Below, in pieces: positions 7,641-63,759 of a stretch of 64,000 nucleotides of DNA; position 1 is the stretch's first letter, and every line of letters starts with the position of its first letter. The notes under the pieces are model-generated. The model saw only the letters and a program-made list of their open reading frames with translations. It did not search any database and had not been told where the DNA came from. Source of the DNA: Macrolepiota albuminosa (Eukaryota > Basidiomycota > Agaricomycetes > Agaricales > Agaricaceae); the NCBI GenBank assembly GCA_027475525.1, contig JAMWFC010000065.1:376188-440187 (forward strand), in the 5' to 3' direction. The translations under genes were made by a program, and so were the position numbers.

Positions 7641-10600
7641 ATTTCTATATTAAAAATTAAATTTAGGTCATTTTCTACCAATCAAAATCAAGTTCCTACT
7701 ACTCCTGAAAGTCAAAGACAGCAATCTCGCACTCAGAGTTGACTTCAGCAACTTCAAATGACTGATCCTGATAATTGTCGTGCAAATAGAAGTAACAGAT
7801 CTCTAAATAGTGGTGCTATATCTATAGCACCTTTTCATTTTGAGCCAATTGCACAAAATAATCGTGTTTCTAATTCTGTAATTACTGCTTCTGAAACTTC
7901 TGAGAGGCTTAATATTCCTATTAGATAGCCTGCTGCTGTCAATGATCCTTTTTCCTTTAATATACCTGAGACTCATTTACCTGAGAACTGGGGTGCTTCT
8001 TTGCAGAATCCTATTCCTCAATATGTGCCACCTGCACCTGTACCTTTAAGAAACAGAAAACAAAGACAAATTAATCAACCTGCTCAGTCTACATCTACAT
8101 CTATTCCTCATGCTCCTATTGCAAATATTTCATCTGCTAGACAATCTTTTAATGCTGCCTCTACATCTTCTTCAAGACTTAGAGGTCCATTACATGATAT
8201 ATCCAGTGGACATGCAGATCCTGCACTTAATAATTTAACACAAGGAGATATTGCATATAGAGAGATGGCATCTAATCATGAACAAAGACTGAATTATTTT
8301 TATGAGCAAGAAAGTCAAAGAAATGCTGCTGAGCGACAGCAAGCACTTCTTGCATTATCACAACAACAAAGGATGAGACATGTTGCAGCACAACAACAAG
8401 CATTAGCTGTTGCACAAGAGCAAGAAAAACAGGGAATTGTAGCTAATTTACAAGAACAAGAAAGATTAAGACAAGATGAAATACAAAGCAGGCTCAAAAT
8501 GCTGCTATAGCTGAGTTGAGAGCTCAACAAGCAAATATGAATTATGATCCAGAATATAGACCTTTGAATGAAGTTGTAGCTCAAAGAATCTTGCATTTTT
8601 GGGAACATGAACATGCAGCTGAATTAGAAGAAAATGTTAATGATGTTAATGATCATGATCAGCAAAATCTTGCTTTTCAAGAAGATATTGAGTTGATAAA
8701 TATTCAAGCAGCTTGGAATCAATTGATGCAAAATCCTCTTGAATACTTTGAAGAACCTATGCAAAATATAAATAATTTTGAAGAACAAAATTTAAATAAT
8801 CACAATCCTGCAATGCATATACCAGAAGAACAAAATATATTACAAGAAGTTGAAGTTGAAAATCAACCAGTTCAAAGACCAAATCGTCGAGGTTAACAAA
8901 GAAATGCTTTGCTTCTACAAGGAAGACAACCTTATATAAATGAACCTGAAAAGCATACTATTGGATCTATGAATATTTCATGCCCACACTGTCAAGCTTT
9001 ACATTTTGATTCTGAAAAACTTAGTAAATCTACTCAAAATAATCCAAAATTTGGCATATGTTGCTTACAAGGTCAAATTGTTTTACCCAAATTGAAAAAT
9101 GCTCCACATGAACTTCTTGATTTATTACATGGCCGTCATCTTCTTTCTCAAGCTTTTAAAGCACATATTCGTCAATATAATGCAGCATTTGCATTTACTT
9201 CTTTAGGTGTAAAAATTGATCATGCTATTTTTTTAAAGCACATATTCGTCAATATAATGCAGCATTTGCATTTACTTCTTTAGGTGTAAAAATTGATCAT
9301 GCTATTATAAATGCTCCAGGCCCATATAGTTTTCAAATTAATGGAGAACTTCATCATCTTACAGGCACTTTACTTCCTACTGAAGATCATAATCCTATAT
9401 ATGCACAATTATACTTTTATGATCATAATGAACAATTAGCTTTACGACAATATAATAATTCTGGATTAGATCCAGCACTTATGGCAATTTTGCAAGATAT
9501 GATTTGGCATGTCAATCCATATATTGGTTTATATAAACAAGCTTATCAAATTATGAGAGATGTTCCAGAAAATCAGCCACAAAAAATTCATATCAAACTT
9601 TGAGCTGATTTTGAAGATCATAGAAGGTATAATAATCCAAATAAACAAGAAGGAGTAGCTGCTGTTATTCCTGAAGATAGTTCTGAAGAGCGTTCTGATC
9701 ATCGAGACATAATTTTGCATTTGCATGGTGGTCAGCTAAAACAAATTAGTCATTTACACTTAGCATATACACCATTACACTATACACTTATATTTCCAAC
9801 TGGAGAACATGGATTTCATTTGAATATTCCTTTTCAGTCTGGACCACAAGGTCAGTGCAGAACACAATATATTACTGAAACTGCTTATTATGCTTATCGG
9901 CTTCAACAAAGAACTTCAGAAGCCAATGCTGCTTTACTTTGGAGTGGTAAATTATTTCAGCAATATATTGTTGATGCATGGGCTTCAATTGAACAAACCA
10001 AACTTAATTGGGTTAGACATAATCAAAAAAAAATTAGAGCTGAAGTGTATCAAGGTGTTGTTGATGCTGCTGCTGGAGATGAACAATTACTACATCAAAG
10101 CCATCGTGTTATTCTTCCTGCATTTCATACTGGAAGTGAAAGACAAATGCAACAACTTTTTCAAGATTCTATGGCTATTTGTAGACATTTTCGAAAACCT
10201 GATATTTTTATGACTATAACTGCAAATCCAAAGTGGACTGAAATTGAAGAAGCTCTTTTGAAAGAACCTACTATTAATGGAAAAAAACAAACAGCTGCTG
10301 ATCGACCTGATATTGTTGCATATGTTTTTGAACTAAAGAAAAATGCTATTCTAAAAGAACTTAAAGATGGTATTTTTGGAAATATAGTAGCACATGTGCA
10401 CACTATTGAATTTCAGAAAAGAGGTTTACCACATATGCATATTTTAATATTTCTTTATGAACAGCATAAAATTAAAGATGCAACACAAGTTGATTCTATA
10501 GTTTCAGCTCAAATTCCTGATCCAGTTACTCAGCCTGAACTTTATAAAGTTATTACTACAAATATGGTTCATGGTCCATGTGTAAATATAAAACCAGATG

Positions 10601-11987
10601 CTAAATGTATGGTAGATGGAAAATGTTCAAAAAGATATCCAAAAGAATTTCGAGAAACAACTCATTTTGGTGACAATGGATATCCTCAATATGCTCGACC
10701 TAACAATGGTCGTCATTTTATAAAAAATGGTCATCATTATGATAATCGTGATGTTGTACCATATAATCCTTATCTTTCAGCAAAATATCAATGCCATATT
10801 AATGTTGAAATATGTGCTTCAGTTGAAGCAATTAAATATATTCATAAATATATTTATAAAAGACATGATCGTACTACATTAGAAATTTCCAGAGAGCCAA
10901 ATCAAAAAGATGAAATTAAAGAACATTTAAATGCTCGATATATCTCAGCTCCTGAGGCATGCTGGCATATTTTTGAATTTAATATGCATGCTGAAGAGCC
11001 TTTTGTTTATTGTCTTCCTGTACATTTAGAAGGTCAATATAAAGTTTTTTATCAAGATAATGAATCTTTGGAAGCTGTTGCTGCTAGAGAAAATTTAGAA
11101 CAAACTGCTTTGACTGCTTGGTTTGAAGCTAATTAAAAATTTTCCAATAATAATACTATTTATCAAAATTTTCCTATAAAATTTGTTTATGAAGCAAAAA
11201 CACGAAGTTGAAAAAATGGGCAAAGAGGATATGCAATTGGAAGAATGTATTTTGCTTCACTTTTTCAAGGAGAGAGATTTTATCTTTGAATGCTTCTAAC
11301 TATTATAATGAATGCTACATCATGGATTGAATTAAAAACAGTTAATGATATTGAATATAGAACATATAAAGAAGCATGTAATGCCCGTAGTCTTTTAGAA
11401 GATGATGCAGAATGGATTCAATGTCTAAGTGAAGCTGCTCCAATACAAACAGGAACAACTCTTCGATTACTTTTTTGTACTATTTTACTTCACTGTGCTC
11501 CTACTATTCTTGAAGATCTTTGGAATCGCTTTAAACAATATATTTGTAATGATCTTTAACGCAGATTAGAAAGAATGAGACAATATAGAGGTGGGCATTT
11601 TGAAGAAGAAAAAATATATGAGTATGGTCTTTATTTTATTAATGAAAAATTAATACAGTCAGGAAAAACTTTAAAAGATTTTTCAAATATGCCATTACCT
11701 ACAGGACCTTCTGAAAATGAAATGTGGAATGATATTTCTGATAATTGGCTATTACAAGATGAGTTAAGTTATGATGTTGAAGCATTGAAAACAACTGTTA
11801 ACAAAAACAAAGCCAAGTTTAATATTGAACAGTTAGATATTTTCAATGCTGTTATAAATTCTGTAAATAACAATTCTGGAAAAATGATTTTTCTTCACAG
11901 TGCAGGTGAATGTGGAAAGACTTTTGTTTGCAATACTCTAGCTGCTGCTATTCGTTCTAATAAAAATGTTGCATTATGTGTAGCATC
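7641..11987 (+). pseudogene. Helitron Rep/helicase, part 1 (N-terminus, Rep, helicase start)
   Basis: In order: a Gln-rich N-terminal region (about 7680-8880) with a frameshift at 8510; a CPHC zinc-finger-like segment (about 8980); the Helitron N-terminal domain; the Rep with DIFMTITANPKW (about 10200), the HUH motif GLPHMHIL (about 10425-10448) and the two-tyrosine motif IKYIHKYIYK (about 10835-10862); then the PIF1 helicase start with a Walker A reading SAGECGKTF (about 11900), where relatives have GGTGKT. Stops at 9601, 11134, 11208, 11287 and 11557 are TGA or TAA at positions expected to be Arg, Gln or Trp. Rep nicks and joins DNA for rolling-circle transposition; this copy is inactive. 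Confidence 0.88.
9154..9306. repeat. 77-bp-period direct tandem duplication
   Basis: Two copies 77 bp apart, identical over 76 positions (9154-9229 and 9231-9306). It lies inside the Helitron coding region and shifts the frame by two; removing one copy joins the frame before it to the Rep frame after it. Confidence 0.95.
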
Positions 11988-12762
11988 TGTCAGGTTCCGC
12001 TGAGTCAGGGGCTTTCCAGGAAAGCAATTGCCCTTACAATGCAAACTTGACCTACGGATACTCGGGTGTCTGGAACTCCAGGGCTAGGACTCCGGGGTTC
12101 AAGACGCGGACAGGGGGAATCCTGGGAGAAGGGACTCGGTCCGGGAGTTTTGGGTTGTGAGTAGCTGGGGGATTTCGGGTGGGAGTCGAGTCGTGAACCG
12201 GAGGTTCTAAGACGAGACCAAGTTAGCAAATTAAAGTTGCAAAGTGCGTACCAATCTTAGAGCACGCGAGTATTCAAGCATGCCAGTCAAAGCGTGCCAG
12301 TCAATGCATACCAGTCAAGCAGAGGGCACGCAACAATCCAAGTAATGCAATGTAATATCAAGACTAGCGAATACAGCGGAAAACTATGCTATAAGTACTA
12401 CGGGGCCAGGTCTCAGGTTCCAGAGTGTCTGGGATGAGTTCCAGAAGTCATTGAGTAGCGGGCAGGGACTGTATACCTGAATCGCGTGTGTGGGGACATG
12501 CGATCAATTGGTGCGGAGGGAGCTATGATGCATGATGTGTGATGGCTGAAAGCGAGTTGCGTGATCCGATCGTTGATGGTGGTTAATCCCAGAGTCCGTG
12601 ATGTGGGGTTCCCAGGGAGTTGGCTGATGGCGGTCTTTGATGCGTGTGATAGCGGCGTCGGCAGCTGTGGGGGCAGGGCGTGCTGTGGGGTTGATGAAAG
12701 AGGTTCCTGGATGGGGCTCCGGGGATGTCCCGGGGAGGTTCCGGAGGGGAGGAGTCGTGACA
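11988..12762 (-). repeat. Chromovirus 3' LTR (left LTR)
   Basis: On the plus strand it runs TGTCAGGTTCC...GTCGTGACA, 775 bp, the same length as the right LTR. In the first 200 positions I count about 18 differences between the two LTRs, all but one of them transitions. Confidence 0.93.
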
Positions 12763-12776
12763 TCACCCCCTCTCAG
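12763..12776 (-). other. Chromovirus polypurine tract
   Basis: On the minus strand GAGAGGGGGTGA lies immediately before the LTR start TGTCACGACTCC. A purine tract here fixes the transcription sense of gag-pol as minus. Confidence 0.7.
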
Positions 12777-12889
12777 CGCCGAGACCCTCTGAGGCGCGCG
12801 TAGCCAGAGGTTCGGACCGGGTTACAAGCGTGGGATCCAGCGCCCGTCCTGCCATATAACAAAAAAAAAATTTACCATCAAACTCAACT

Positions 12890-14642
12890 ATGTCGCGTAT
12901 GCCAACGCATTCCCTGACGCCTCCGCAAACTAACGAGGTCGTGCCCTGCATGGCATGGGAAGCCTGGGATGCGCAATACCGAGCTCGCCTCAACCGGAAG
13001 CGTGTGGCGGCGCTCGCTCAACAATGTGAGTGCTCCTGCGCCGTCCGCTTACCGCCACTGACCTTTCTTTTCCAGAACAACACAACATTCCTGCCCCGGA
13101 GGTGGGTCCCAGCCAGTTCTTGGAGCCTGCTCCCAATGCAGGCCCCAGTGTCTCTCCAGAGTCCCGTCCCAGTTGTCCTGCACCCACCTTTGCGTGGATG
13201 ACTGTCCGCCCTCCCCACCCGCAGCCCCCTCTCCGCCCTAGATTGCCTGCCCCCTGTTTTTGTCGTTCCAAAATGGCGATAGAGACCGTGTCAGAAGTCC
13301 TGGAGAGTCAATGTGTTGCGTGGGCGGACGCAACACAGAAGCTGTTTGGGGAGGCCCTGGAGAGGCCCCAGGGTCTCCCTGCCCATGCCTGGTGCGTGAG
13401 CAACGGACCGGCAAGTTGTTTTCTACCTCTGATTGCCCTTGCTGACTTTGGTGCAGTGCCTGCATTGCGCTCGTCGAGGGGTGCTTTGCCTGTTCAAGGT
13501 TCCGGGCCTCTTGTCCCGCTGGGACACGGCTGTGTATGAGGCCTGCTGCCTCAACCACGAGCGTTGTTCCGTGTTGGCGCTGTGGAGGGCGCGTTGTGTT
13601 GCCCAGGAGCAGGGATGGCCACTGGGGGGAGTTACCTGGAGGATGGGGGTCGAGGAGCGGGATTGGGTGGCAGAGCCAGTGGGGGAGGTGGTGGGGCCGG
13701 TGGGGGAGGTGCCTGCAGCGCCCGCGGAGGCACCTAGTGGGGGGTCGGGGGGCCAGGGGGTCGTCCAGGTGGAGGGCCGGGGCCGGCCTGTAGTGCTAAT
13801 CACGTGCCCGGCCACTTGGTCCGACACCCGGGGGCAGGGGGGGCGTTTAGACAAGAGGAAGCAGCAGGCGTCGCCCAGTCCCTCCCTGAGGCCTTCCAAG
13901 AGGGTGCGCCTGCCCGTGGAGACCCCATCCCCGGCCTCCCCAGCATGCCTTTCCCCAGCGGCATTCTCTCCATTGTCCGGGCAACCGCTGAGCGTCGAGG
14001 TGAGGGATCTGCAGGCGCGCTTGGAGCAGGCTGACCAGGAGAGGGAGGAGCGTGAGGAGGCAGCGCTCTGGCAGGGGCTGGAGGAGGATCGCGAGGCGGC
14101 CCTCCAGGAGTTGGGGGAGGCGAGGGTGGCACGGGGGGAGGCTGAGGCCTGGCTGGACGCTATGGAGGCCAGGCTGGAGCAGGGGGTAGGGCTCCCGGGG
14201 CAGGGCCCCCCAGGGTTGGTCGAGACTCTGCGCCGAGACGTAGTGATTGGGCGCATGGCCTTTCTAAGTGAGTACTCCCCTTCTTGTGGCTGGGCCGGCA
14301 CTGATATCCCCAGGCTGGGCTCGGGAGCATCGTCAGCTCCTGAACGGGGTGGCCGCGGCATTCGCTTCTCTGCAAGAGGGGTTGCAGTCTGAGGCGGGGA
14401 ACCCTGGGGTGGAGCGGGGTCTGGACCTGTTGGGGAGGCTGGTGACCGTGCACCGCCAGAGGAACGTCCTGGCCCTGGGGTCATGGTTTGAGCGGGTCCT
14501 GGACAAGGGCAAACTGCTCCCGTCTTGGGACCAGTTGGCCAAGGAGGTGTGGCGGGAGCATGGTCCAGGAGGAGTGGGGGAGGATTTCTGGGGCTGGCCA
14601 AGGGGAGGGGAGGGTGAGGGCGGTTCGGGGCCCCAGCTCTAG
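12890..14642 (+). CDS. Accessory gene antisense to chromovirus gag-pol; Cys-rich and coiled-coil protein
   Basis: A spliced gene starting 128 bp inside the left LTR. Exons by eye: 12890-13025, 13076-13410, 13457-14267, 14314-14642. Intron 2 is a 46-nt GC-AG intron (13411-13456); intron 3 is GTGAGT...CAG (46 nt). The protein has an N-terminal segment rich in Arg/Ala, a Cys cluster (CLHCARRGVLCLF, then CCLNHERC) resembling a degenerate fungal zinc cluster, a basic Pro/Ser stretch (KRKQQASPSPSLRPSKRVRL) and a Glu/Ala-rich coiled coil (about 14030-14200). The C-terminal exon has no known domain. Splicing exon 1 to 2 creates TAA where CAA would be expected, so this copy may be dead. Similar Cys-cluster proteins travel with agaricomycete retroelements as far as I recall; the function is unknown. 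Confidence 0.65.
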
Positions 14643-14917
14643 GGGTCCCTATTTTCTTGCTGTTGTCTATTTTCTGGTACTGCTAACTGTAAAATAGTGT
14701 ACGTATAAAAATGTATATAATTAGTCTCCCGGAGTCAAGAAATAGTGTAAGTAAGGTGGTGGGGAAACTGGAGAGAGTACCTTGTCCAGACTCCGGGGCG
14801 CTACTATGGAGAAGTACTAAAAAAAAGGTGAAATATAGAGAGAAAATATAGAGAGGGAACAGAAAATATACACGGGAGTTGAATCTCTACTGGGCCCAGA
14901 GGCGGGGGTTATGCCCA

Positions 14918-15192
14918 CTACTGCTGTCTGTGGGTCCTGCATCCAGGGGGGTTGTTTCCCGGGTGCCGTTGCTGGAAGTCCCGGAGTTTGTCAGGGGCAC
15001 CTTTGAGGTTTCGACACGGTTCCCAGGTGTCGTCCTCCAGACCGTATCCCTTCCATCGTACAAGAAAGTGGGGTCGTCCACGAATGTTCCGGGAGTCGAG
15101 AATGTCTTCAACCTCGTAGTGGTACTCGTCCTCAATCTCGACCGGAGGAGGGGGTTTGGGCCATTGTTCGGGAAAGGGATCCGGGGGGTGTT
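14918..15192 (-). pseudogene. Chromodomain at the end of chromovirus pol
   Basis: The minus-strand reading carries [19 protein letters not shown], then [14 protein letters not shown] and a final helix around [10 protein letters not shown]. This is the chromodomain pattern (aromatic cage Y/W/W) found at the integrase C-terminus of chromoviruses, where it guides integration to heterochromatin marks. It is separated from the integrase core by the inserted solo LTR. Before the break the reading contains [20 protein letters not shown]. Confidence 0.88.
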
Positions 15193-18700: not shown

Positions 18701-20172
18701 TGTAGCTGAAACGTGGGTGTTCCATCCTTCATGAGGTGGGCGAAGGGGGCGGCTCCAATGATCCTAATGTCGAGTGCGTTCAGGTCGATCGGAGTCACGG
18801 ATGCATCAGCTGGAGCGGGTTTGACACGTGTCTGAGACCGGCCAGGGTAGTTTGGCCCTTTGTACTTGTTCCGAGGAATGTTTGGGGGTCAATCAGGGGC
18901 CTTGCAGGCTCAGACGGGGGTGGGTGGCGCATGTGTGGGGGGCATGGCTGTTGTCCCAGGGGTGTTGGGCATCGGATCGCTCCCTAGGGCCTGGAGGTGC
19001 ATGGCGGTCAAAGGGTGGTCTTCGGGTCCCGGGAAGGTCATGGTGAGTGTCCTCCAATCGATGTCGGGGTTTGTGTCATGCAGCCAGGGTAGTCCCAGCA
19101 CCATCGGGGTTGATTCGTAAAGTCGCATGACCAGGAAGTCAGAGGTGAATTCGTAGTCATTGTCCAGGGTCATGCGTCCCAAGTAAGACCTCTGGATGGG
19201 GCCGGAGGAGGAGGGGGTGCCGTCGAGGCGTTGCAGGTGGAGGGGCTGGTTGAGGGAGAGTAAGACCTCTGGATGGGGCCGGAGGAGGAGGGGGTGCCGT
19301 CGAGGCGTTGCAGGTGGAGGGGCTGGTTGAGGGAGTCGTGGAGGAGGTCGAGGGCGTCGCTGATGAAAACTCCGGTGGCTCCGCTGTTGATGAGGGCCGA
19401 TATCGGTCCCGGGGCACCGTCCAGCCTGGCACTGATGACAAAGGATCAGGACAAGCGGGACTGGAGTCCGGGGGGTGGTGGGGGCCCGTCTGGGGGGTTC
19501 TTCAGGGTAGGGTCCGGAGAGTGAGGGATGTCAAAAGGGAGTTGTTGGTCGTCAGGTGTCAGGTCCCGGGTCAGGCAAAGGGTAAGATGTCACCAATTGA
19601 TGTGGGGGTTGGTGTCTTGGAGCCACGGAAGCCCTAGGACCAGGGGTGTGGAGGGGTGGAGTTTGGTTATCAACATCCAGAGAGTATGAGTCTGTCCGTT
19701 GGTGAAAGTAATGGGCATACATACGAAGTGAGTGATGTCCCCCGCCGTAGAGGCGTCTCTGTCGAAGAGGCAAAGCCACACCAGGACCAGGAGTCGCTGA
19801 GCAGGTTCCGGGGCAAAGGTAGACCATGCTTCGTCAATGAAGTTGTTGGTGGCGCTACTGTCAACGAGGGTGTTGAGGGGGGTTCCAGAGGGGGTGAGGT
19901 GGGTTTTGAGGAGGAGAGAGTGCGAGGAGTGGAAGGGTAGGTAAGCCGTGAGGGTGTCCTGTATGAGTGCCATGGAGCGAAGATGTGAGACCAAGGCGGA
20001 GAAGACGTCGGGGTCGATTCCGCAATTTAGGGCGTCTTCCAGGTCTAAATCGCTGGGTCGTTTTCCGAATACTCGTAGGTGGCGTCCTCCCCTTCGAAGG
20101 TCCAGGTGGCACATCTCATGACCTGTCATTGGGGGCACTCGGAGATGAAATGGTCTTTCTCACCACAGAGTA
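18701..20172 (-). pseudogene. Zinc knuckle and aspartic protease region of the chromovirus
   Basis: Near 20130-20172 the minus strand reads CILCGEKDHFISEC, a CCHC knuckle, followed by a stop. The frame 20138-19590 contains a retropepsin-like segment with NTLVDSSATNNFID, where DSGA would be expected, and VLGLPWLQDTNP. A second protease-like reading lies at about 19100-19440 (ALINSGATGVFIS; MVLGLPWLHDTNPDIDW), suggesting a partial duplication of this region. A 77-bp-period duplication at 19182 adds another frameshift. Confidence 0.7.
19182..19335. repeat. 77-bp-period direct tandem duplication
   Basis: Copies 19182-19258 and 19259-19335 are identical over exactly 77 bp. It lies in the protease region of the chromovirus. 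Confidence 0.96.
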
Positions 20173-23795: not shown

Positions 23796-24012
23796 CAGTG
23801 GCTCAAAAAACTATCCCTATGTTTTATACTTTTTGAAAGATGACATTGGCATGAAGGATGGGAAGTATGTAAAGTCCTGATCAAATCATGTAAAATACTA
23901 TGGCATCGTAGCTACAGAATGAATCTAGGTTTATGTAATCAAGATCAAAACTGATGGAGCAATAGCCATTTTAAAATATTCACTCATTGGGACAATTTTT
24001 TGAGCATCTCTA
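23796..24012 (+). repeat. Left terminal inverted repeat of the Tc1 element
   Basis: About 215 bp matching the reverse complement of 25341-25556. Its inner end carries the motif GCTCAAAAAATTGTCCC in the opposite sense to its outer end, so each TIR is bounded by inverted short repeats. The inner part is duplicated at 77-bp period. Confidence 0.85.
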
Positions 24013-24089
24013 TAATCAAGATCAAAACTGATGGAGCAATAGCCATTTTAAAATATTCACTCATTGGGACAATTTTTTGAGCATCTCTA
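23936..24089. repeat. 77-bp-period direct tandem duplication
   Basis: Copies 23936-24012 and 24013-24089 are identical over exactly 77 bp, inside the left TIR. Without it the two TIRs have equal length. Confidence 0.96.
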
Positions 24090-24209: not shown

Positions 24210-25329
24210 CATCTTGACCTTCAACCACTATCATGAAACCTATTCCTTCTGCACAACACTCTACTGTTGCTTCTCTTCTTGCTCAAGGGTATTCTCTGGT
24301 CAGATTGGAGCTCAAACTGGTCTAAGGAAGTCTACTACTGGGAGGATTGGTAGAGAGTTGGAGATGGACAAGGAAAACCATCCTGGAGGCCATCCTGCTA
24401 AGCTTACTCCATGTGATAAACAGGCTATTGTTTGACAAATCTCAACTAGGAGACTTGATACAGCTGTCCAGGCCACTAATTTTATCAACAACATCATTTC
24501 CAACCCTGTCTCTTTCAAGACTGTCTGGAATGTGTTGAAGGAGGAGGGGTATTGGTCTGCTACCAAGAGAAAAGTTCCTATGCTCAAAGCTAAACATTGA
24601 CAACTACAGCTTAAATGGGCTCAGAAGCATCAGAACTGGACTATAGAGGACTGGAAAAGGGTGTTGTGGACAGATGAGACAAAGATTAATAGGATTGGGT
24701 CAGATGGGAAGCAGTATGTGTGGAAGCTACAAGAAGAAGACATTTCAAGACCGAACAACTACACCTACTGTGAAGCATGGAGGAGGGAATAATCTCATGG
24801 TATGTACAAGAAGAAGACATTTCAAGACCGAACAACTACACCTACTGTGAAGCATGGAGGAGGGAATAATCTCATGGTATGGGGCTGTATGAGTTGAAAT
24901 GGGGTAGAAAAGCTTGTAGAGGTGGTGGGGATCATGAATGCAGAGCAGTACTGTGAAATTTTAGATGATGGAGCAAAGGAGAACTTTGAGAAGTTGGAGA
25001 TGGAGGAGGGTGCCTACTACTTTCAACAGGACAATAACTCCAAACACAACTCCAAGAGGGCTGACAAGTGGTTTGAGGACAACAACTTTAATGTCCTTTG
25101 GTGGCTAGCCCAATCCCCTGATCTCAACCCTATTGAACATCTCTGGAAGTACCTCAAAGAGCAACTTAGGCAGTATAAAACACCTCCTTATGGTGTGCAT
25201 GAATTATGGGAGAGGGTTGCAAAGGAGTGGGATGAAATACCACCAGAGGTATGCCAAAGACTAATAGAAAGCATGCCTAGAAGGATTCAAGCAGTTATCA
25301 AGGCAAATGGAGGACATACAAAGTACTAG
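24210..25329 (+). pseudogene. Tc1-type DDE transposase, broken
   Basis: An N-terminal helix-turn-helix-like reading (TGLRKSTTGRIGRELEMD and following) is followed by stops at 24433 and 24598. The first catalytic Asp lies in LWTDETKINRIGSDGKQY (about 24665). After the 77-bp duplication and a TGA near 24895, the C-terminal frame (24922-25329) has the second Asp in YYFQQDNNSKHNS and the third acidic residue in QSPDLNPIEHLWKYLKEQL, the DDE/D spacing of Tc1. Inactive as it stands. Confidence 0.9.
24728..24881. repeat. 77-bp-period direct tandem duplication
   Basis: Copies 24728-24804 and 24805-24881, identical over exactly 77 bp, inside the transposase. It shifts the frame between the first and second catalytic Asp. 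Confidence 0.96.
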
Positions 25330-25556: not shown

Positions 25557-26618
25557 TACTATAGTTTTTGGAGGAGATTTTCGACAAACATTACCAATTA
25601 TTCCAAAAGGATTGAGGCAACAGATTATTGCTGCTTCTTTAAGTAAAGGAAGATTGTGGAAAGAAATTGAAGTATTTTATTTAGAGGATTGAGGCAACAG
25701 ATTATTGCTGCTTCTTTAAGTAAAGGAAGATTGTGGAAAGAAATTGAAGTATTTTATTTAGTTTAAAATATGCGCTTAGAACAAACTCCAGAAAATGTTG
25801 GTCATGCAGCTTGGTTATTGAATATTGGTGCAGGAAAAAATTTAGGGCCTGAAGAAACAATTCAAATTCCAAAAACAATGATGTGCAATGATAACTCAAT
25901 TAAAGGCCTAATTGTATCTATATATCCTGACATTGCACATGCTCATAATGATCAATATTACCTAGATCGAACAATTCTTTCATATACAAATTCTGATGTA
26001 GATGATATCAACTTAAAAGTCCTTAATCAATTTTCAGATGAAGAAAAAATATTGTGGAGTGCAGATTCTGTACACATTGAATCTCATAATAATAATGCAT
26101 TTCCACCATATCCTATGAAATATCTTAATTCCTTAGCTGCAAGTAGATTATCTTTAGCAAAATTAGTTTTAAAAATTGGTGTTCCAGTCATGCTTCTTCG
26201 AAATCTTGATCTATCTAAAGGTCTTTGCAATAAAACAAGAATGATAGTTACAAATATTGGCTGCCGTGTTTTGCAATGTCGAATTATCAGTGGTGATGCT
26301 AAATTTGCAGAATCTTCTGTTTTTATTCCAAGAATCAATCTTGATACATCTGAAGAAGATCTTCCTATTCCATTGCATAGAAGACAATTTCCTGTTCATT
26401 TAGCATTTGCTATGACTATAAACAAATCACAAGGCCAATCAGTCAAACATGTTGGATTAAATCTTCAATCACCAGTTTTTTCATATGGACAGCTTTATAT
26501 GGCACTTTCTCGATGTACATCAGGTAATTGTATCAAAGTTATTTTATTACCAGAAAATACATCACAAAGAAAAACTAATATTGTATATCAAGAAATTTTA
26601 AATGGTTTACAAATGTAA
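25557..26618 (+). pseudogene. Helitron helicase, part 3 (C-terminal PIF1 motifs)
   Basis: It resumes with [20 protein letters not shown], is shifted by the 77-bp duplication at 25608, passes a TAA near 25765 and continues open from 25770 to 26618. Motifs include MLLRNLDLSKGLCNKTRM, FAMTINKSQGQSVKHVGL (motif V) and LYMALSRCTSGNCIKV (motif VI). Its end at LQM marks the C-terminus of the Rep-helicase. With parts 1 and 2 it makes one protein of the usual Helitron order. Confidence 0.92.
25608..25761. repeat. 77-bp-period direct tandem duplication
   Basis: Copies 25608-25684 and 25685-25761, identical over exactly 77 bp, in the helicase coding region. Confidence 0.96.
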
Positions 26619-26718: not shown

Positions 26719-26872
26719 CAATATATAATATTGAAATTGATTTTAAAATTGAGTTATTTATATATATTTGAAGTTTTAACCAAACAAAGTGAGGTCAATA
26801 TATAATATTGAAATTGATTTTAAAATTGAGTTATTTATATATATTTGAAGTTTTAACCAAACAAAGTGAGGT
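26719..26872. repeat. 77-bp-period direct tandem duplication
   Basis: Copies 26719-26795 and 26796-26872, identical over exactly 77 bp, in the non-coding 3' region of Helitron A. It duplicates one of the hairpin units described in the next entry. Confidence 0.96.
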
Positions 26873-33286: not shown

Positions 33287-34990
33287 TTAAATTGCAGATA
33301 CAAAAAGATACCGAAGCGAAAAAAAATTAAGGAGTCTGCGATTCAGGAATCGTCCACCGAGGCAAAGAAACCGAGCAAAGCGGCGTACGGAACTAACGAT
33401 ATCAAACACCCACGGATATAAACAGATCTCGCGAAGAAAACGAATGTGGTATGGAACAGGAGGCTCACGGTAAGCTCCCCATTTGGCGACAAAATCTGGG
33501 TGAAGATACTTCCAGCGATCGTAGTAGTCATATGCCACATATCACGGTAAGCTCCCCATTTGGCGACAAAATCTGGGTGAAGATACTTCCAGCGATCGTA
33601 GTAGTCATATGCCACATATTCAAGGTTCGCTGGTGCTGGTAAAGATAATACGTGCTCGGGTGTCAGGGGAATGACCTGTCCCTCAAAAAATTGCAAAGCT
33701 TCTGAAGCCTTAAACCGCTGTGCGATGTCGCGAGTCGTCATGCGGTCCAACAGGGGCGCTAACATTGGAACAGCGCGCGTCATATGCTGCGAGAATAACA
33801 ATAATGGAATTTGCATCAATAGCAGACGGCTGACAATACACAGACTGATTCACCTGAAATTCTTGGCAAAACATAACACCTAGCATTCCAACGTCAAAGG
33901 GAAAAGGATTGAAATCAAACTCTCCCTGAAACGTATCCCCTGGGACCTGTTCATACAGCGTGTTAAAGGAGATGTGGCTTGGAAGACGACAATCGTCGAG
34001 GGACATAGAAGGCGGAAACATTGTAGAACCATCAAAGTCAAATAAAGCATAGGTCAATTTTCCTTGAGAACGTAAAGACTGGCGGCAGGAGTCTCTGGCG
34101 TCCCAATCATCAGTGTACACATGGCTAACGAGTATATTGCCTGTCTTTATGTCCTGCGATGGCAAAGTTTTCAGAAAAGTCAGGTCCTTAATGTCAGAAA
34201 ACGCACCCCGTGAGCGATGCGATGCTTGTGAAGGTAGGTCAATCCCTGGCGAAGGTGTTAGAGTGAATGGAACTAGGACGGAGAAACAAGGAACCTTCAA
34301 AAGACAATGCATAAAATGGAATACTTCATGTAAATAGTGACATCTGGGTAAGAGAGGGAAAACACCCCATCTAGTTCCATAGCTGTCAGTCGAGGTGAGT
34401 GTTTTTGCAGTAATTGATGCACACCTGGGCATAACAGCCAGCCAATGGCCTTCGCAAGCAAGAACGTCCAGAACAGGTATGACATTGTGAAAATCATCCA
34501 CTGAACGAGGCACTCCCTGATCATGAAGGTATTTTAGAATGCGAAACTCGTCGCTTCCGTCTACAACAGCTTTTACAGCTACGTGCTGTCCTTGGGTATT
34601 CTGAGCAAAAGCAATGTTGCCCTGAAAAGAGCCTGAGCATCTCAAAATTCTCTTTGAAAGTTGCCTTCCTTACACACCATCGAACCAGTGTTTCCAGAAA
34701 GCATTGTCACTCTCTCCAGTTCCTGCCCTTCATGACTTGCAAAGGGAAAGACATGCTCGCCATGTCCCGAGTATACTGGGTACATCCTATCTTCATAATA
34801 TCCTTCAGAAGGAAGTCGGTGATACAAAGTATAGCCCTTTTCCAAGAGCCACGATCGGATACGGTTTGAATCCCACCAAACAAGCCTTCGGCAGGATAAT
34901 TCGTAAAATCCGGTATCATGTGGAAACAAAGGAGTTCGCAGCACAGAATCCAGGGTGTCATCATACTCAGAAGAATCGCATAATGTAAGG
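33287..34990 (-). CDS. Divergent protein-kinase-like protein (basidiomycete family)
   Basis: A spliced gene with exons by eye from about 34990 to 34674, 34632-34295, 34245-34207, 34153 to about 33860, and on to about 33287. Introns are 41-66 nt with GT-AG ends (34633-34673, 34246-34294, 34154-34206 and one near 33790-33860). The kinase core has AVKAVVDGSDEFRILKYL (Lys and helix C region), EVFHFMHCLLK, the catalytic loop HRIAHGDIKTGNILV with HGD in place of HRD, LFDFDGS in place of DFG, and FDVGMLGVMFCQEF. The unusual DFD and HGD make activity doubtful. This matches a kinase-like family expanded in mushroom genomes. The start is unclear. A 77-bp-period duplication breaks the C-terminal part. 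Confidence 0.82.
33465..33619. repeat. 77-bp-period direct tandem duplication
   Basis: Period 77, identical over 78 positions (33465-33542 and 33542-33619). It falls in the kinase-like C-terminus; with one copy removed the frame reads through AYDYYDRWKYLHPDF into REPPVPYHIRFLREICLYPW. Confidence 0.95.
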
Positions 34991-38362: not shown

Positions 38363-45427
<7,065 letters not shown>

Positions 45428-45887
45428 GTCTCGCAATCGTTGCTTTCCCTCTTTGCCCTGCCTTGCAGGTATATCATCTCTAATGTCATGATCATCGCAA
45501 GCTATACACTAGTTTTTTCTCTTTTGCTGTTTTTATAGTTCATACATTTCACGCCCCCCCCACTTCATCTCTACGCTTCTTCATGATCTTGCTACGTAAT
45601 GCTTTACAAAACATGACGCCCTATTACTGACCATTTTTTTGATGCATGACCATTTTCCTTGTTATCATTTGTGCTATATTCTCTTGACACCACCCTATTG
45701 GTCAAGCATTGTGCATAAATCTTTTTGCTACATGTTATGTGCTCAAATCCATAAAGATGTACATCTGATATTCGTACTTAGTTTCGAATAAAGAGACCAG
45801 TTTCGAATAAAGAGACCAGTTTCGAATAAAGAGACCAGTTTCGAATAAAGAGACCATCGCGTTGTACGTTTATTTGTTTAATCCTGC
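45428..45887. other. Convergent intergenic region between the large gene and PEBP
   Basis: 3' flanks of two convergent genes. It contains the 19-bp tandem repeat listed next and otherwise nothing recognised. Confidence 0.6.
45780..45855. repeat. Four tandem copies of a 19-bp unit
   Basis: The unit AGTTTCGAATAAAGAGACC occurs four times without change. The last unit and its right flank recur at 46877-46940, where the decayed PEBP copy begins. Confidence 0.95.
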
Positions 45888-54317: not shown

Positions 54318-54319
54318 GT

Positions 54320-55700
54320 CCCAGGAAAAACCAATGAATGTAAAGGAATTTGTAAATTCAGTGCCCGATTTATTGGTATGCCAAGGGATATTAAGGCAAG
54401 AAACGAGATCGAGGACAGAATCCCTGTCATGAGCATAGAGAAAACCGTTATGGTGAAAAGGTCCGGATGCATTAGGAAATCAGAGACAATTGATGTCATC
54501 TTCGAATTTGAACAATAAACCGTCGTCTCCTAATTGAGCAGCCCAGATGTCGACCAGGGCATTAGCGATTTGGCCAGCATTACTGCTGGCAGGTCTTGCA
54601 CCGAACGGGTAATTATGGTCGATGTAGAATTTATCTTGGAAGCTGACAACTAGGAAAGGTTTATGCTCTGGCAACACTGGACATGTCCTGTGGAATGACT
54701 TGATGTCGAAGCAACATGCTTGAGTTCCGGGAGGTGATACAGCAATCTGAGGAACGGTATAAGTAACAGCAAAATACAGAGAGAGACTTGAGAAAGACAT
54801 AGAAAGCAGTGGGAGGTGCGAGAAAGAATAAAGAAGGAGTTAAGAAAGGATATAGAAAACACCAGGAGGTGTGAGAAAGGATGTGGAAAGGCTGAGACAA
54901 AGCCACACTGAAATAGCGTAGCAGAAAGGCAGGCACAAAATGACATGAAAGAAAGGCTGGCTGGCATGAAAGAAAAGAAAGGATGTAGAAAGACTGAGAC
55001 AATGCCACACTGAAATAGCATAGCAGAAAGGCAGGCACGAAATGACATGAAAGAAAGGCCGGCTGGCGTGAAAGAAAAGACAGATACGCCGAGTTTACGC
55101 AATGAGAATTATGAAATGGGTAGCGAAATGCATAACCATTTTGACAATTAGTATAAAAGACTTACTTGTTCAGCAACAAGATGTGCAATGTCAAAGCACG
55201 TCGGAAAGTCCCCTTTATCAATAAAACTGTTAACTGAGAAAATGCCAGTAAGAGGATCGTCTTTAGACAGATTCCTACAAACGCGGTATTTTGTGGGTAG
55301 ACTGAGACCTGGGCGCTGGACGGCAACAATCAAGGGTGAGGAGTATATGGGGCCCCTCAAAATATGTTCTGTATGAGATAAAGAAAAGAGGCCAGACATT
55401 TGGTATGCCGTAATCTCATCGTTCAGATATTCTTGAATAACCTCTGGAAATTCAGCAACGGATGGATGATTTCGAATAACAACAGAATCAGCAAGTACAG
55501 GCAGAGTGCCCAAAGGAAAACCTTGTTGCAGATTTAAAACCAGATGAGGACAAAAACTTGATAAATCGTGTTTAAGAAGAAGCCGTTCAAAAGCTTTGGA
55601 GTTATAGAGATGAATCACACGTTCAAATAATTCGATGTCCTGAGGTGATGAAGTGGAAGTCAAAGGCTGAGGGTGCACGTGGGTCGCAAGATCTGGGTAG
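54320..55700 (-). pseudogene. Reverse transcriptase of DIRS-like element 2, with intron
   Basis: The N-terminal part (to 55168) has KYRVCRNLSKDDPLTG and FIDKGDFPTCFDIAHLVAEQ. The RT continues at 54751 with IAVSPPGTQACCFDIKSFHR (catalytic Asp of motif A), FYIDHNYPFGARPASSNAGQ and the FEDD box in LLFKFEDDINCL, where YVDD or WVDD is usual. Below 54480 the frame shifts. The two parts join in phase by the GT-AG intron at 54752-55167. Confidence 0.8.
54752..55167 (-). other. Intron inside the DIRS reverse transcriptase, containing a tandem repeat
   Basis: Donor GTAAGTCTTTTATAC at 55167 and acceptor TTCCTCAG at about 54752 join GCTGAACAA to ATTGCTGTATCA, giving VAEQ-IAVSPPGT in frame. Inside (54876-55080) two copies of a unit of about 102 bp differ at several positions, so this is a genuine diverged repeat, unlike the 77-bp ones. 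At 416 nt it is far longer than other introns here. Confidence 0.7.
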
Positions 55701-57068: not shown

Positions 57069-57596
57069 CAGCTCGAAGCGACTTGTACGTTGCTGCTCTG
57101 TAAGCTGTTGCTCCAGCTATGGTTTATATAAGCCATCGCTCCAGCTGCTGTTGTTTATGTAAGCCCTTGCAGTTGTTTGTTTGTGATGTTGCAGTTGCAG
57201 GCAAATACAGTTTATTTGGTAATATAATGATGCGGTAATACTATAAAAGCGACAGAAAGGAGAAGGATCGGTGGATGAGGGAGAAACAAAATACGGGTCC
57301 AGTGGACTCGTTAGGGAAGGAAGCAGGACAACAATATAGTCAGACCCAAACAAGTGTCTGTGAATCGTAGTCGAAACTATATGCGATTGGCAAAGATCAA
57401 CGAGACCGTTATTGACAATGTGACAAAGTGAGCAATTGAAGGCTTTTTGATCAATGTAATCATTGGTTGCCGTTGTCCGATGCGTCTACATCTATTCTGT
57501 TCTGGCCCTTGTCTGAAATGTCTCTCAGCTTTCTCTTCAGTTTGTTCTTGGTCCCTTCGTTGGATACTACGTTCTGTGGGGTGTTTATTAGTGTGT
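57069..57596. other. Region with short GCTCCAGC-type direct repeats
   Basis: 57095-57185 contains two to three units like TAAGCTGTTGCTCCAGC followed by TATGGTTTATATAAGCC. Closely related units occur at 62935-63020 in the same orientation and a piece at the right edge (about 63985). No gene recognised. Confidence 0.6.
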
Positions 57597-58680
57597 TTAC
57601 TGTGTTGCTTTGTCACTCACTTTCATGAAGCTAGACCGGTGCTTGATAAGAGTCATGGATCTCAATACGAGAAGCATTTTGAGTTTCCCACCCACCAGAT
57701 TAACAACCTGGAACGATAGCTGGACAGAAACGAGGTCTCCTACTCGGAATCTTTCCGGCTTGTAATGTTCGTATCTTAAGTTTTCCTTCAGTTTTGTTTG
57801 TTGCTCTATTGAGTTGTACTTACGTTGTCCTGTTCCCTTCATTTACCTTCATCTTTGAAAATTGGACCACGTTGTCTTTGCTCTATTGAGTTGTACTTAC
57901 GTTGTCCTGTTCCCTTCATTTACCTTCATCTTTGAAAATTGGACCACGTTGTCTTTGGTAATCATGAACCCTTTCTGCGTTATTTTCTCTGTGAGCTTGT
58001 ACAGGTCTAGTTCCCTGTCCATGGGAATGTGTTGTTCGTTCTTCTCCACATCGAATGTCGGTGTAAATATCCTGTTTGCGATGTCTAGTGATCTTTCTTG
58101 CTGTCCGAGGAACACGTTGTACCAGCATTCGAGACGGCCTTCTGAAAATTCAAGTTCGAAGTGCTTGTTAATCTCCATTGCTCCTATCATTGCATCGTCA
58201 AAATGTTTTGTTCCTAGGCCGTCCAGCTTCACGTATTGCTTCATGTATTTCAGTCGTCTGTAGTCGCTGCTTTATGTGATTAGACTCTGTTCTGTTGGAT
58301 CTCATTGAACGCACCTCATGCGTATTTCTCTTTTCAGTGGCAGGAGATCCTTTTTGCTTATGGCTCCGTATACCGTGAAAACCAACTCCTTGTCTGATAT
58401 GTTTCTCTTTTCAGTGGCAGGAGATCCTTTTTGCTTATGGCTCCGTATACCGTGAAAACCAACTCCTTGTCTGATATATTGCCATCTTCATGGACGTACA
58501 CTAGTCACCATGAGTGAGGCTTATTTACTTCTTTTGTCTTAATGGCTTCTGCCCATCTTGGTTCCTGTTATGTCTTGTGTGTTGACAGTCCGACATATGG
58601 TGTGCAGTTTGGTTACTTACATGTGCGACGCTGGTCAACATAACATTGTTTTCTTCTTCTCCTTTGCATATGGCTTTCTC
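57597..58680 (-). CDS. Conserved protein of unknown function, divergent partner of the JmjC-like gene
   Basis: Minus-strand exons: PRWAEAIKTKEVNKPHSW then TGA and LVYVHEDGNISDKELVFTVY (about 58565-58460), an intron near 58265-58315, then MKQYVKLDGLGTKHFDDAMI, FLGQQERSLDIANRIFTPTF, DNVVQFSKMKVNEG, and, with the 77-bp repeat collapsed, KGTGQRKYNSIEQQTKLKEN, FRVGDLVSVQLSFQVVNLVG and GKLKMLLVLRSMTLIKHR to a stop at 57597. The wording is familiar from mushroom hypothetical proteins; no catalytic motif seen. The in-frame TGA suggests a damaged copy. Upstream exons are not resolved. Confidence 0.6.
57801..57957. repeat. 77-bp-period direct tandem duplication
   Basis: Period 77, copies starting 57801 and 57878, identical over 80 positions. 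In the minus-strand gene it separates KMKVNEG from KGTGQRKYNS, which join in frame when one copy is removed. Confidence 0.95.
58325..58477. repeat. 77-bp-period direct tandem duplication
   Basis: Period 77, copies starting 58325 and 58402, identical over 76 positions, in the exon coding LPLKREIRM. Confidence 0.95.
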
Positions 58681-58823
58681 AATCGCAGTTTCTTGATTGT
58701 GTGATGAGTCTACTGATGTTGAGGTGTCTGTAAACGTTGCTTACTTATGGCTTTCTCAATCGCAGTTTCTTGATTGTGTGATGAGTCTACTGATGTTGAG
58801 GTGTCTGTAAACGTTGCTTACTT
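58669..58823. repeat. 77-bp-period direct tandem duplication
   Basis: Period 77, copies starting 58669 and 58746, identical over 78 positions, in pyrimidine-rich sequence without a recognised gene. Confidence 0.95.
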
Positions 58824-59583
58824 GCTGCTTCTGTGTCGTAATCTGCTCCTAAGGTTATTTTTGTTATGATATATCTACTGTGGCTCTGTCAGTATAATAC
58901 ACCTGTCGGACAGTGGCTAGACGTACATTGTATTGCTGCTGTGTCTTGATATCCTTCTAGTCTGTTGTGCTATCTGTGTATTCTTTATAGTATCAGGAAG
59001 TGATCAGTGAGTGCCTCGACTGTTTTCCTGTGTATGACATGATGTATCTTGGTTTACCTATCGCATATCCAACTCGTTTCCTTCCTATCGGCTTCGTCTT
59101 TTTTGGTATATGCATTTCGGTTGTTTAGTACCTTCTGTGCCTGTCATCTTGATGCTTCCCGTAGTCTGTTTCCAGTGGTACATTAATTTCTGGCTTCGTT
59201 TTATCATCCTCAACTGTTTAGGAACAGACCTTATGATATTCCTCTGTCTCTCTTTCTTTGTCCTCTCATTAGTGAATCTCTAGTGTGTTGCCCTTCTGAG
59301 GTTACGGCTATTAAGGTACAACATTACGAGTTGTGGATCTGCAATGCTTGTGTTCTATCTAAAAGGTCCCACTGTGCCTTCTGTGAATCTTGTCTTACTG
59401 AATTTTTCATTCTACTTAATTTTATTTTGTTCAAAGAAAGGGATACACCGTTCTTTACGTTATACTGTCTTTCCCTCCTTGATGCAACGTGCAGCTTGCT
59501 GCTCTATATAAGTGTCCTTTGTCCACTGTCCTTGATAATCCTCCTCTTTTTTCTCTGTGTGTTTTGTGTCACTATACGAACCC
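58681..59583. other. CT-rich intergenic region between divergent genes
   Basis: T- and CT-rich sequence, possibly holding upstream exons of the minus-strand gene. No motif or RNA gene recognised. A plus-strand frame at 59283 with several Cys (CNACVLSKRSHCAFCESC) is translated from the same CT-rich DNA and is not supported. Confidence 0.4.
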
Positions 59584-62500
59584 ATGCCCCCTCACAAGAT
59601 AAAGTCTGAAGAGAATAAGGCTCAGACACTTGTTGACCAACTCAAGACCATGTGTGTTTTATATTGGTGTCTTTGATTTTTTTTTTTAAAGAAAAAAACT
59701 TGTTGTCCTCGGTGCAGGAGTGCGGATAGGTTGCAAGCGTGTGTACAGCTCTTTCAGTTCCGGTCGGTCTTGCTAATTTACACCCGTAGTTACCGGTATT
59801 GGTTCATTAACTTTGGTCAACGCCTCCGAGACAACAGTTAACAATGACCTGCCTTCTTCCAAACCGGTGGTGACTGTCAGCCCTGCTAAGACTTCTAAAA
59901 ACAACCAGAGAAAATCTGCACGTATTGCAGCTAAAAACAAGCGACATAGTATGGTACCCTTGACACCTAGGAAGAGGAAAAGAAACTTTATGAGTAAGGC
60001 GCACATTGACTCAGATAGCGCAAGCGAGTCTCCCATGTTGGACTCGGATGGCGCTAGCAATTCCTCCAACGACTCTGCTGAGGTAACAGCAGTTGCTTCA
60101 CCCCTTGAAAATGTTGAGACAGATCAGGGTTATATTGACCTGACCCTTGAGTCTACGGTGAGTGACTGTCTATGTATTGGTCAACTGGTTGTGATTCTGG
60201 GTTTAGAATGATGAGGATAGCCATATGGTCAAAAATCCAAATCGTCTCAATCTCTCAGAATCATGAATCCTCCGTAAAGGGGATGCCGTACAAATATCTT
60301 TGACTGGCAGCAATGGGATATTTGAATACACGCCAAAATTTCACGTGCATATATATTCTATTCCATTATAGTAGCCTTCCATTCACTGCTCTGTAGCTTG
60401 ACAGGGACCTTGTTTGGTTTTGCAGAATGTATGCCGCATCTATTGCTCGTCGGGATCGACCCTCGTCCGTGAAGGTGATGACTCAAACCGAGTATCACTC
60501 TTCATCTCCGCTTGCTCTCTCGAAAATATTGGCATCGCAATCATGCATTCTTGTTATTGGGAACCAGCATATTGACCCGGGCTTCAATGCGCGCTCCTTA
60601 TCAGACGTATGTGTCCTGGACAATGTTATCCAGGTGCATGGTACGTTCTCCTTTGTTTTATTATTATTATTATTGTTGTTGTATTTAATTTAATTCAATT
60701 TGTTTTATTTTTTCCTGCAGATTTCACCATATCTGGTACCGAACACTTGAAGCATGCAACCCCTCGGGATCTTCTAAGGACACTGGAATCTTCGTACCCA
60801 AGATCATTAAGTGCTTTGGATATCCCTGCTTCTCTAGAAACTTTCATCTTCTAAGGACACTGGAATCTTCGTACCCAAGATCATTAAGTGCTTTGGATAT
60901 CCCTGCTTCTCTAGAAACTTTCCTGTGCCTCCCATTCTCAAGCGACTCGGCTGTCTGGGGAAAAGTTCAAGGTCATGGGTACTGTAAAGTGGAGGATTTT
61001 TATCCAATTTTGGATATGCGATGGAATCTTGCATCTACCAGCAGAACCCACCATTACTGGCACATAGATGCCAATGGTTTTGCTACCTTTGTCTTCATCG
61101 AGACTGGCACAAAGTTGTGGTTTGTGGCGTTGCCCAAATCTGGAAATTATAATGACTTTGGAGCCTGGGATCTTTATGTTAACAATTTTTACACCAAAAA
61201 GCCAAACGATGAAAAGTGGGACGTCGAGCTACTTGTTCTGCAGCCAGGTTCCATGCTGTTTGTCCACTGGTTATTTCTTTTCCTTATATTATTTACTGAT
61301 AATATATTATTACAGCATTATGCGCCCGTGTCTACCTCACGCCGTAGTTACTCCCATACCAACAATATGCCGTAGGGGTCATTTCTACAACACATCGACT
61401 CTCGCTGCCTCGATAATTGGCTTATATCACCATTACGTTGCTTCCACATCAATATCCAACACCGACCACGCCTCCGCCTCATACACGGTGCTAATGCGCC
61501 TCCTCACCTATTTTGTACTTGTTCTCATCAACTCTGTGACCAAACACGGTACGTGTAGTCACCATCACATCTGTTTATACTGTTCATGTATGTGCAGATT
61601 ATGACCATGGTCATGTTCTGGACACAAACTCATGGGACGGTGTGCTGATCCTTCTTTATCTATGCAACTATTTTGAGTTGCATGATGCACTTGCGTCTAC
61701 AAACTATGCTTGGAGCAGCGACCTTTGATCCTTTGAGGTGTCCATCAAAAACTGGGTCCGCGCAAAGGCTTATGTACTGGTTCTTCTCCAATCACAAATT
61801 TGAAAGTAAGTCCGATGGCAGTGTCATAACAGGTCTGCCTGCGCTTGAATACATATCGTCTTGATTCCTGGCTACACATGCTTGTGTACTTATGCACTAC
61901 AAAAAGCTGGTCTGCCTGCGCTTGAATACATATCGTCTTGATTCCTGGCTACACATGCTTGTGTACTTATGCACTACAAAAAGCTTGCATGGCTGAATAA
62001 TTTACGCGGGTCTGACGCAAACACCCCACCGTCAACAACTTGTATCAACATTCAATCCGTCCTCCGCGATGGACCTGCCTGGAAGGCATACACCCTCGTC
62101 CGTCCGCGTCTTGGTGCTTCCGATGTCGATCCTGCCGAATTGACGTTTGCCTGGAGGGGAAGCCGATACATTGTTCGCAGAGTTCCTACAGTTGACTTTT
62201 GTGAGTGTTTTCTGCATTGACGTTTGCCTGGAGGGGAAGCCAATACATTGTTCGCAGAGTTCCTACAGTTGACTTTTGTGAGTGTTTTCTGCATCTAAGT
62301 CCTGATATTTCTCATCCTTCCTCAGCTTATCCATACATCAACGGTTATGTTTGGCGTGACTTCACAATTGCATGCCAACTTGGCGTCACGCTCACAAATG
62401 CCAATCCCCAACACGACGAGGACGCTGACTTGTCTTGCTGAGTCAAATTTTCTGTTGATGAATTGAAATCTTACAATGCCTGCCCCAAGGCCGGTTATAT

Positions 62501-62690
62501 CAGCAACACCCCCCCCCGAATCTCCTGTACTTGCTCCTACAAACACACCCCCCGTAGTCCCAGCCCCCGTAGTCCCAGCCAAAGTGATACTTTGAGTAGC
62601 TCAAGCAGTGATGACGAATCATCGGACAGGCCTGGTGAGTTGCTCTGTACAGATCTCAATATTGTACTCATTCACGTAATCTAGCTGCTA
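59584..62690 (+). CDS. JmjC-like protein of a basidiomycete-expanded family
   Basis: Tentative ATG at 59584 (MPPHKIKSEENKAQTLVDQL). The basic nuclear-type region follows (SKNNQRKSARIAAKNKRHSM, about 59895-59960), then an acidic Ser stretch. After introns: RRDRPSSVKVMTQTEYHSSS, QSCILVIGNQHIDPGFNARS, the segment LLRTLESSYPRSLSALDIPA, and the JmjC-like core KVEDFYPILDMRWNLASTSR, THHYWHIDANGFATFVFIET with the iron-binding HxD, GTKLWFVALPK, then RPCLPHAVVTPIPTICRRGH with a candidate distal His. A C-terminal Ser-rich tail ends near 62690. JmjC proteins are Fe(II)/2-oxoglutarate oxygenases; this subfamily's substrate is unknown. Three 77-bp-period duplications disturb it, and exon borders are approximate. 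Confidence 0.72.
60769..60922. repeat. 77-bp-period direct tandem duplication
   Basis: Copies 60769-60845 and 60846-60922, identical over exactly 77 bp, in an exon of the JmjC-like gene (the LLRTLESSYPRS segment appears twice). Confidence 0.96.
61832..61985. repeat. 77-bp-period direct tandem duplication
   Basis: Copies 61832-61908 and 61909-61985, identical over exactly 77 bp, within the JmjC-like gene. Confidence 0.96.
62139..62294. repeat. 77-bp-period direct tandem duplication
   Basis: Period 77, copies starting 62139 and 62216, identical over 79 positions, in the JmjC-like gene (the RGSRYIVRRVPTVDF segment twice). Confidence 0.95.
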
Positions 62691-63030
62691 AGCAAATCCG
62701 GCGGTCCTAGCGGTATTTTTAATATATATTGTAGTTTATCTCGCGGCGCTGTTGTTTATTTTTTTTTTCTTTTGTAAACTTAATATCGTGTAGACCATCA
62801 AATAAGATGGTATATCCAGTGTCTCCAGTGCTTCAAAAGATTAAGATTGTTAAGTTATTTACCACACAGTAGCCTATAAAAACGCTTGAGCCAGTGTTTG
62901 TATTTATCTCAAGCTATAGTACCCTGCTGCTGTAAGCTATCGCTCTAGCTATGGTTTACATAAGCTGTTGCTACAGCAATATTTTATATAAGCGGTTGCT
63001 CCAGCAATGATTTATGTAATCTGCCACTCC
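62691..63030. other. 3' flank of the JmjC-like gene with GCTCCAGC-type direct repeats
   Basis: 62935-63020 holds about three units related to 57095-57185 (GCTATGGTTTACATAAGC, TGTTGCTACAGCAATATTTT and GGTTGCTCCAGCAATGATTT). No gene recognised. Confidence 0.55.
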
Positions 63031-63559
63031 GTTGATACGATGCTGTACCAGCAGTCAGGGACACACCATGCACCAGAAGTCAAAATAAACATTTAATTAT
63101 GGGCTGAAAACTGTAAGCCTCCTGGTAGCAGTCTCAACAAATTATATCTCCAAAAACACCCCAATAAATACACAGACAGTACAGAACAAAGGGCAGGGAC
63201 CAGCTCAAGCTATCAACTCAACAATAGTCCAACCACTGTTATGGGGAGGGGAAGCATGGAAGCTGGCAGAGGTGACAAAAGGGGATCAAATTGTGATGAT
63301 CTAGATCAAGATCTGATCTGACAATGCCCAATTTGATATGACTGAAAGGGGAAAGGGAAAGAAGCATGGAGGGATGTCAAAAGAGATGAATAGAATGGTG
63401 GCACATGCATTGAATGGAGGAAGGGAGGGATGAATGGAATGGTGGCACTGAAACATGCATCACCAAAATGGAAAATGGAACAACAAATTAGGTCAGGAAT
63501 GCTGGGAGGTCAAGAGCAAAAAGTCATGTGATTGGGTGGTCTGTGCACTGGAAAATTAG

Positions 63560-63567
63560 TATAAATA
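63560..63567 (+). promoter_or_regulatory. TATA box candidate
   Basis: TATAAATA in AGTATAAATAGTCC, about 45 bp upstream of the repeated leader-like block at 63604. It is the clearest TATA element in the right-hand region. Confidence 0.45.
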
Positions 63568-63603
63568 GTCCAAGTAGAGTAGAGAATGACCAGGCAATTG
63601 ATA

Positions 63604-63759
63604 GGCAAAGGCTTGGTGGTTCCCAGGGAGTGAATCACTTAGGCTAGAGTTTATTGAACACCTCTCATTGGAAGTCTATTGGCAAAGGCTTGGTGGTTCC
63701 CAGGGAGTGAATCACTTAGGCTAGAGTTTATTGAACACCTCTCATTGGAAGTCTATTGG
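63604..63759. repeat. 77-bp-period direct tandem duplication
   Basis: Period 77, copies starting 63604 and 63681, identical over 79 positions, in the leader-like region. Confidence 0.95.

Follow-up and report, generated by a model that had tools for sequence, protein, structure and literature searches.

RESULTS

Period-77 doublings in the window

The window analyzed here is a 64,000-nucleotide stretch of a fungal genome assembly (G000, contig C11, positions 376188 to 440187; the assembly holds 100.1 Mb in 129 contigs). It contains Helitron sequence, a DDE_3 domain, high-copy repeats, a kinase-like gene, and a large conserved gene at 38 to 45 kb. Set into this DNA are 15 places at which a stretch of 77 bases stands twice, and these doublings are the subject of this report. 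A tandem scan of the window at all periods from 10 to 999 (exact runs of at least 30) returned 19 rows, 15 of which had period 77 and lay at the starts given by a preliminary description of the same DNA (the row at 62166 is part of the site at 62139). The remaining four rows had periods of 19, 24, 38, and 64, with runs of 58, 33, 39, and 32, respectively. Tandem Repeats Finder (TRF) recovered the same 15 arrays. All 15 sites are direct, gapless doublings with adjacent copies, and each has two copies, with a partial third at 63604 according to TRF.

The copies were identical over at least 77 positions at 12 of the 15 sites and differed by one mismatch at each of the other three (the last unit base at 9154 and 58325 and unit offset 26 at 62139). 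Thus, the statement in the preliminary description that the copies show no divergence stands for the 12 sites and fails for these three. Runs exceeding 77 at the exact sites (78, 78, 79, and 80) look like chance extensions. Because only about 6e-38 chance runs of at least 70 are expected at one period, chance is excluded as a source of the doublings. The longest word common to any two of the 15 units was 10 bases, so the units are unrelated, as had been described, and no base was fixed at the unit edges. A minisatellite or tandem repeat family was ruled out, since the units are unrelated and are present in two copies each, apart from the partial third at 63604.

The first doubling (9154..9307) lies upstream of a Helitron_like_N domain, with T/A as the last unit base of its copies. 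Six other copies of this family (L003 to L008) carry the 76-mer once, followed by A and then C, and the window reads A and then T at that place, directly after the 77-mer. Exact doublings were found within a high-copy repeat (19182..19335), by the exact-run scan at 23936..24089, directly upstream of a DDE_3 domain that we take to be Tc1-like (24728..24881), at the PIF1 helicase part of a Helitron (25608..25761), and in A+T-rich DNA (26719..26872). At 25608, most of the matches listed from other copies start at or near the unit edge. The doubling at 33465..33619 (run of 78) lies in the gene previously described as kinase-like, and that at 40637..40790 is exact and lies in an exon of the conserved agaric gene. 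High-copy repeats hold the doublings at 57801..57957 (run of 80), 58325..58478 (last unit base G/A between copies), 58669..58823 (run of 78), and 62139..62294 (its one mismatch being internal). The exact-run scan also gave exact doublings at 60769..60922 and 61832..61985 and a doubling with a run of 79 at 63604..63759.

The elements had earlier been named as Helitron, Tc1, and chromovirus DNA. The Helitron, with PIF1, and DDE_3 domains were found; no chromovirus domain appeared in the pieces given to Pfam. Pfam also returned nothing in four pieces within 57.9 to 61.6 kb or in one at 53.5 to 54.3 kb. TRF listed less exact repeats as well, and its top-scoring tandem repeat in the window was a 102-base unit in two copies with 93% identity (54874-55080). 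A perfect 19-base tandem repeat with about four copies (45780-45856) is unrelated to the 77-base doublings.

Doublings across the assembly

Outside the window, we sampled 25 stretches of 10 kb on 14 other contigs (250 kb of 100 Mb, or 0.25%). These were placed by hand at round coordinates on contigs taken from a Helitron search, and the sample is therefore non-random. It contained 36 period-77 doublings (at most three mismatches each), with at least one in 14 of the 25 stretches and on 10 of the 14 contigs. The doublings are clustered, since 11 stretches had none and a single stretch had as many as seven. In the window and the sample together (314 kb), 51 of the 53 near-exact duplications (period 40 to 499, at most three mismatches) had period 77, and the other two had periods of 81 and 50. 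The preliminary description had proposed a scan of the whole assembly, and in the 250-kb sample the outcome was as predicted, with doublings spread over the assembly and almost only at length 77. One gap of 100 N was present in the sampled DNA (L010).

Homologous proteins of other fungi

At both genes that we compared, the assembly doubles, in two frames, a stretch that is single in other fungi. The window was aligned with six agaric proteins, out of 120 listed homologues of the gene at 38 to 45 kb. Five of the six match site 40637 twice with the same residues, the frame changing from 2 at the first match to 1 at the second, and the sixth protein matches the first copy only. It had been claimed that collapsing one copy would restore the reading frame in the Helitron, the kinase-like gene, the large gene, and the gene at 57.6 kb; at 40637, the homologous proteins support this claim.

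The gene for RPB2 (L034) was compared with 5 of its 120 listed homologues, and in all five, residues 443 to 462 (P0121 numbering) match twice in two frames. This doubling (L034, 3538-3691) spans an intron-exon border, and its unit includes the 3' end of the intron with the splice acceptor. Because the unit carries the acceptor, splicing to the second acceptor could leave an intact message, and we dropped this doubling as proof of lethality for that reason. It is clear from RPB2 that marker genes, too, can be hit by doublings in this assembly. The best RPB2 relatives were those of Arthromyces matolae (96%), Lyophyllum atratum (95%), and Tricholoma furcatifolium (94%), and the large gene of the window had its best relative in Termitomyces. 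Judged by these relatives, the genome is that of an agaric near Arthromyces and Lyophyllum, probably in the family Lyophyllaceae.

A counterpart contig

Contig C29 carries a counterpart of the window around 40 kb that is 93 to 98% identical. The unit of site 40637 is present there once, in that the two matches of the site halves overlap by exactly 77 bases, and the base directly before the unit is T on C29 and C in the window. For site 33465, three close copies were found (two on C29 and one more on C11), each of them single, with an overlap of 78 that equals the local run. The corresponding relatives of the kinase-like gene (33300-33800) lie at C29:252243-252664, C29:198194-198624, and C11:501991-502421, with 94 to 99% identity, and from their sequences they look like a gene pair on two haplotypes. 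More distant kinase-like copies were also seen, many of them on C65. The reverse case occurs too, since C29 has two period-77 doublings (L039) where the window has one copy. By its sequence, C29 is probably an allele-like counterpart, as a second haplotype would be.

Copies of the repeat families

Most, but not all, of the listed repeat copies have the stretch once. For the repeat at 57.6 to 59.0 kb, most copies among the matches listed break at the edges of the three units there, and a few continue across one or two of these edges. Run-through copies were also present among the matches at 25608, 62139, 33465, and 19182 and in the Helitron search. We read five run-through copies (L002 and L041 to L044), and all have a period of 77 of their own; the remaining ones are presumed to be alike.

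A doubling inherited within a repeat family, which would have spoken for a biological origin, was considered for a 91% match on C73 (L002) and was set aside, as L002 itself has a 77-base doubling at a shifted place. It was also considered at 19182, where more than 30 copies run through, and the four that were read carry their own variants in both halves. The list at 19182 comprises the 40 that were scored out of 621 candidates and is biased, because doubled copies score best. Two of the four, L043 and L044, are doubled well out of phase with the window, and the pieces read end within their runs, of which they cover 69 and 65 positions.

Bases adjoining the 77-mers

If the doubled 77-mer is a vertex of a de Bruijn graph with K=77, another genomic copy of it is expected to have a different base at the position immediately preceding or following the 77-mer. 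We examined this in 42 sequences (347,506 bases) holding 65 doublings, of which the 59 exact ones were kept and the six with mismatches dropped, the doubling at 9154 being left out for the mismatch between its copies. Also dropped were L001 and L038, which lie inside the window, L040, which is the same place as L039, and L036 and L037, which overlap L035. Another copy outside any doubling was available for 11 of the 59 doublings, which were therefore testable, and 48 had no usable copy.

At 8 of the 11 testable doublings, the other copy departs at exactly the base adjoining the 77-mer, compared with 227 of 9,421 control positions (2.4%) in the same sequences. The binomial tail comes to about 4e-9 when the 11 doublings are taken as independent and twice the control rate is used to allow for runs exceeding 77; counted by distinct 77-mers, 7 of 10 pass, since those at L003:2214 and L008:776 are identical. 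One of these hits, that of L013, rests on an inverted copy within the same locus. A 77-mer that ends at a variant base is the hallmark of a branching vertex in a K=77 graph of the de Bruijn type, whose adjacent edges share K bases.

Two of the loci show further features. L003:2214 and L008:776 belong to two Helitron copies doubled at the identical 77-mer, which L004 to L007 carry once. In L013 (608-848), the doubling is followed just downstream by a further, inverted copy of the same 77-mer, which might reflect either a terminal inverted repeat or a further faulty join.

Site spacing was also recorded. Of 36 spacings between successive sites, none was below 78 (K+1), the smallest being 133, with few below 78 expected in any case.

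DISCUSSION

The doublings are almost certainly an assembly artifact, in which edges were joined without trimming the 77 bases that they share. This is the origin put forward in the preliminary description, and it is supported by the fixed length, by the spread over the assembly, by the single copies elsewhere, and by the branch bases at the unit edges. Short reads would have gone into a de Bruijn graph whose neighboring edges share a 77-base K-mer. A later step, probably long-read-guided joining or scaffolding, would then have kept the shared K bases, so that each join carries the K-mer twice. Joins of this kind would sit where the graph branches, at differences between haplotypes or between repeat copies, and such a position would lead both to clustering of the doublings and to ends beside a variant base. 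The program was probably SPAdes with K=77 or SOAPdenovo2 with -K 77. Long contigs together with the 100-N gap suggest a hybrid or scaffolded assembly.

Within this artifact, a different step might be responsible, namely, insertion of a 77-base overlap by a gap filler or polisher, or k-1 overlaps in a k=78 graph. Such a variant would give the same fixed length, and scaffolding did take place, as the gap in L010 shows; common assembler settings, however, are better matched by an odd K of 77. We consider the variant unlikely, and its probability forms part of that given to the artifact as a whole and does not add to it. The definition and naming of k vary among programs, as the cited portion of PMC5368935 indicates, so that SPAdes with K=77 and SOAPdenovo2 with -K 77 are inseparable here, and the sequence alone cannot separate the programs.

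We also weighed origins in the genome itself. Real tandem duplications, accumulated in the lineage by replication slippage, microhomology-mediated repair, or polymerase theta, could account for direct, head-to-tail, and mostly identical copies if they were very recent, but slippage and repair processes give a spread of lengths, whereas one length accounts for 51 of the 53 duplications. Further, the unit edges have no constant base, and the ends of most testable units coincide with bases that differ among copies in the genome, all of which makes this origin very improbable. A fixed length is typical of target-site duplications, and one might think of these, of excision scars, or of a mobile element with a fixed 77-bp footprint. 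However, at all 15 window sites the copies adjoin without an insert, there is no shared target motif, and known target-site duplications are far shorter than 77 bp; we hold this to be more improbable still. At the very bottom of the scale of credibility we place a real process that doubles exactly 77 bases beside heterozygous or repeat-variant positions, for example through a repair nuclease that measures a fixed 77-nt stagger at mismatches.

Several observations nevertheless weigh against untrimmed overlaps as the origin of the doublings. Three of the 11 testable doublings (L002:1497, L002:2417, and L039:564) had no adjacent variant in the copies compared. Further copies of these three sequences may exist, and the Helitron family of the two in L002 has additional copies outside the comparison. 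RPB2 was found at one place only, which implies that the assembly need not hold both haplotypes throughout. L041 (run of 78) and L042 (run of 77) are doubled within a few bases of the phase of the window's 19182 site, as would also be expected from an inherited doubling; in each of them, however, the same copy-specific variants are present in the two halves. Three sites in the window and 3 of the 36 sampled sites have one or two mismatches between their copies, so that a second step is needed, and these few mismatches probably stem from later polishing. Finally, a period-77 run at L020:2801 has only 70 matching positions and falls outside the near-exact definition; it is perhaps a doubling altered by later polishing.

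If the doublings are untrimmed overlaps, they carry no biology, and their weight is that of a quality warning. As 77 is not a multiple of 3, a doubling within an exon fakes a frameshift, and gene models, pseudogene counts, duplication counts, and variant calls derived from this assembly need to be treated with care. Extrapolation from the 36 sites in 250 kb, a small and non-random sample, gives roughly 14,000 sites, or about 1% of the 100-Mb assembly as false sequence. The comparison of bases adjoining the units also offers a way to recognize such joins in other assemblies without reads.

In our literature search, from which most subscription journals were absent, no report of a K-length duplication artifact was among the papers listed, which were related ones only. 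In most de Bruijn assemblers, adjacent edges overlap by K, according to the cited portion of PMC7379835, and Unicycler removes the overlapping contig ends created by SPAdes, according to that of PMC5481147. A positional bias in variant calls at distance k from contig ends in draft assemblies (PMC5368935) resembles the doublings in that the effect appears at a fixed distance equal to the assembler's k, and it is attributed to unresolved repeats; it differs in that the portion cited deals with false variant calls and not with inserted duplicate sequence. The doublings also resemble the K-overlap of SPAdes and other de Bruijn assemblers, which has the same fixed, sequence-independent length and occurs at branching K-mers; in the present assembly, by contrast, the overlaps seem not to have been removed and are located within contigs that reach megabase size.

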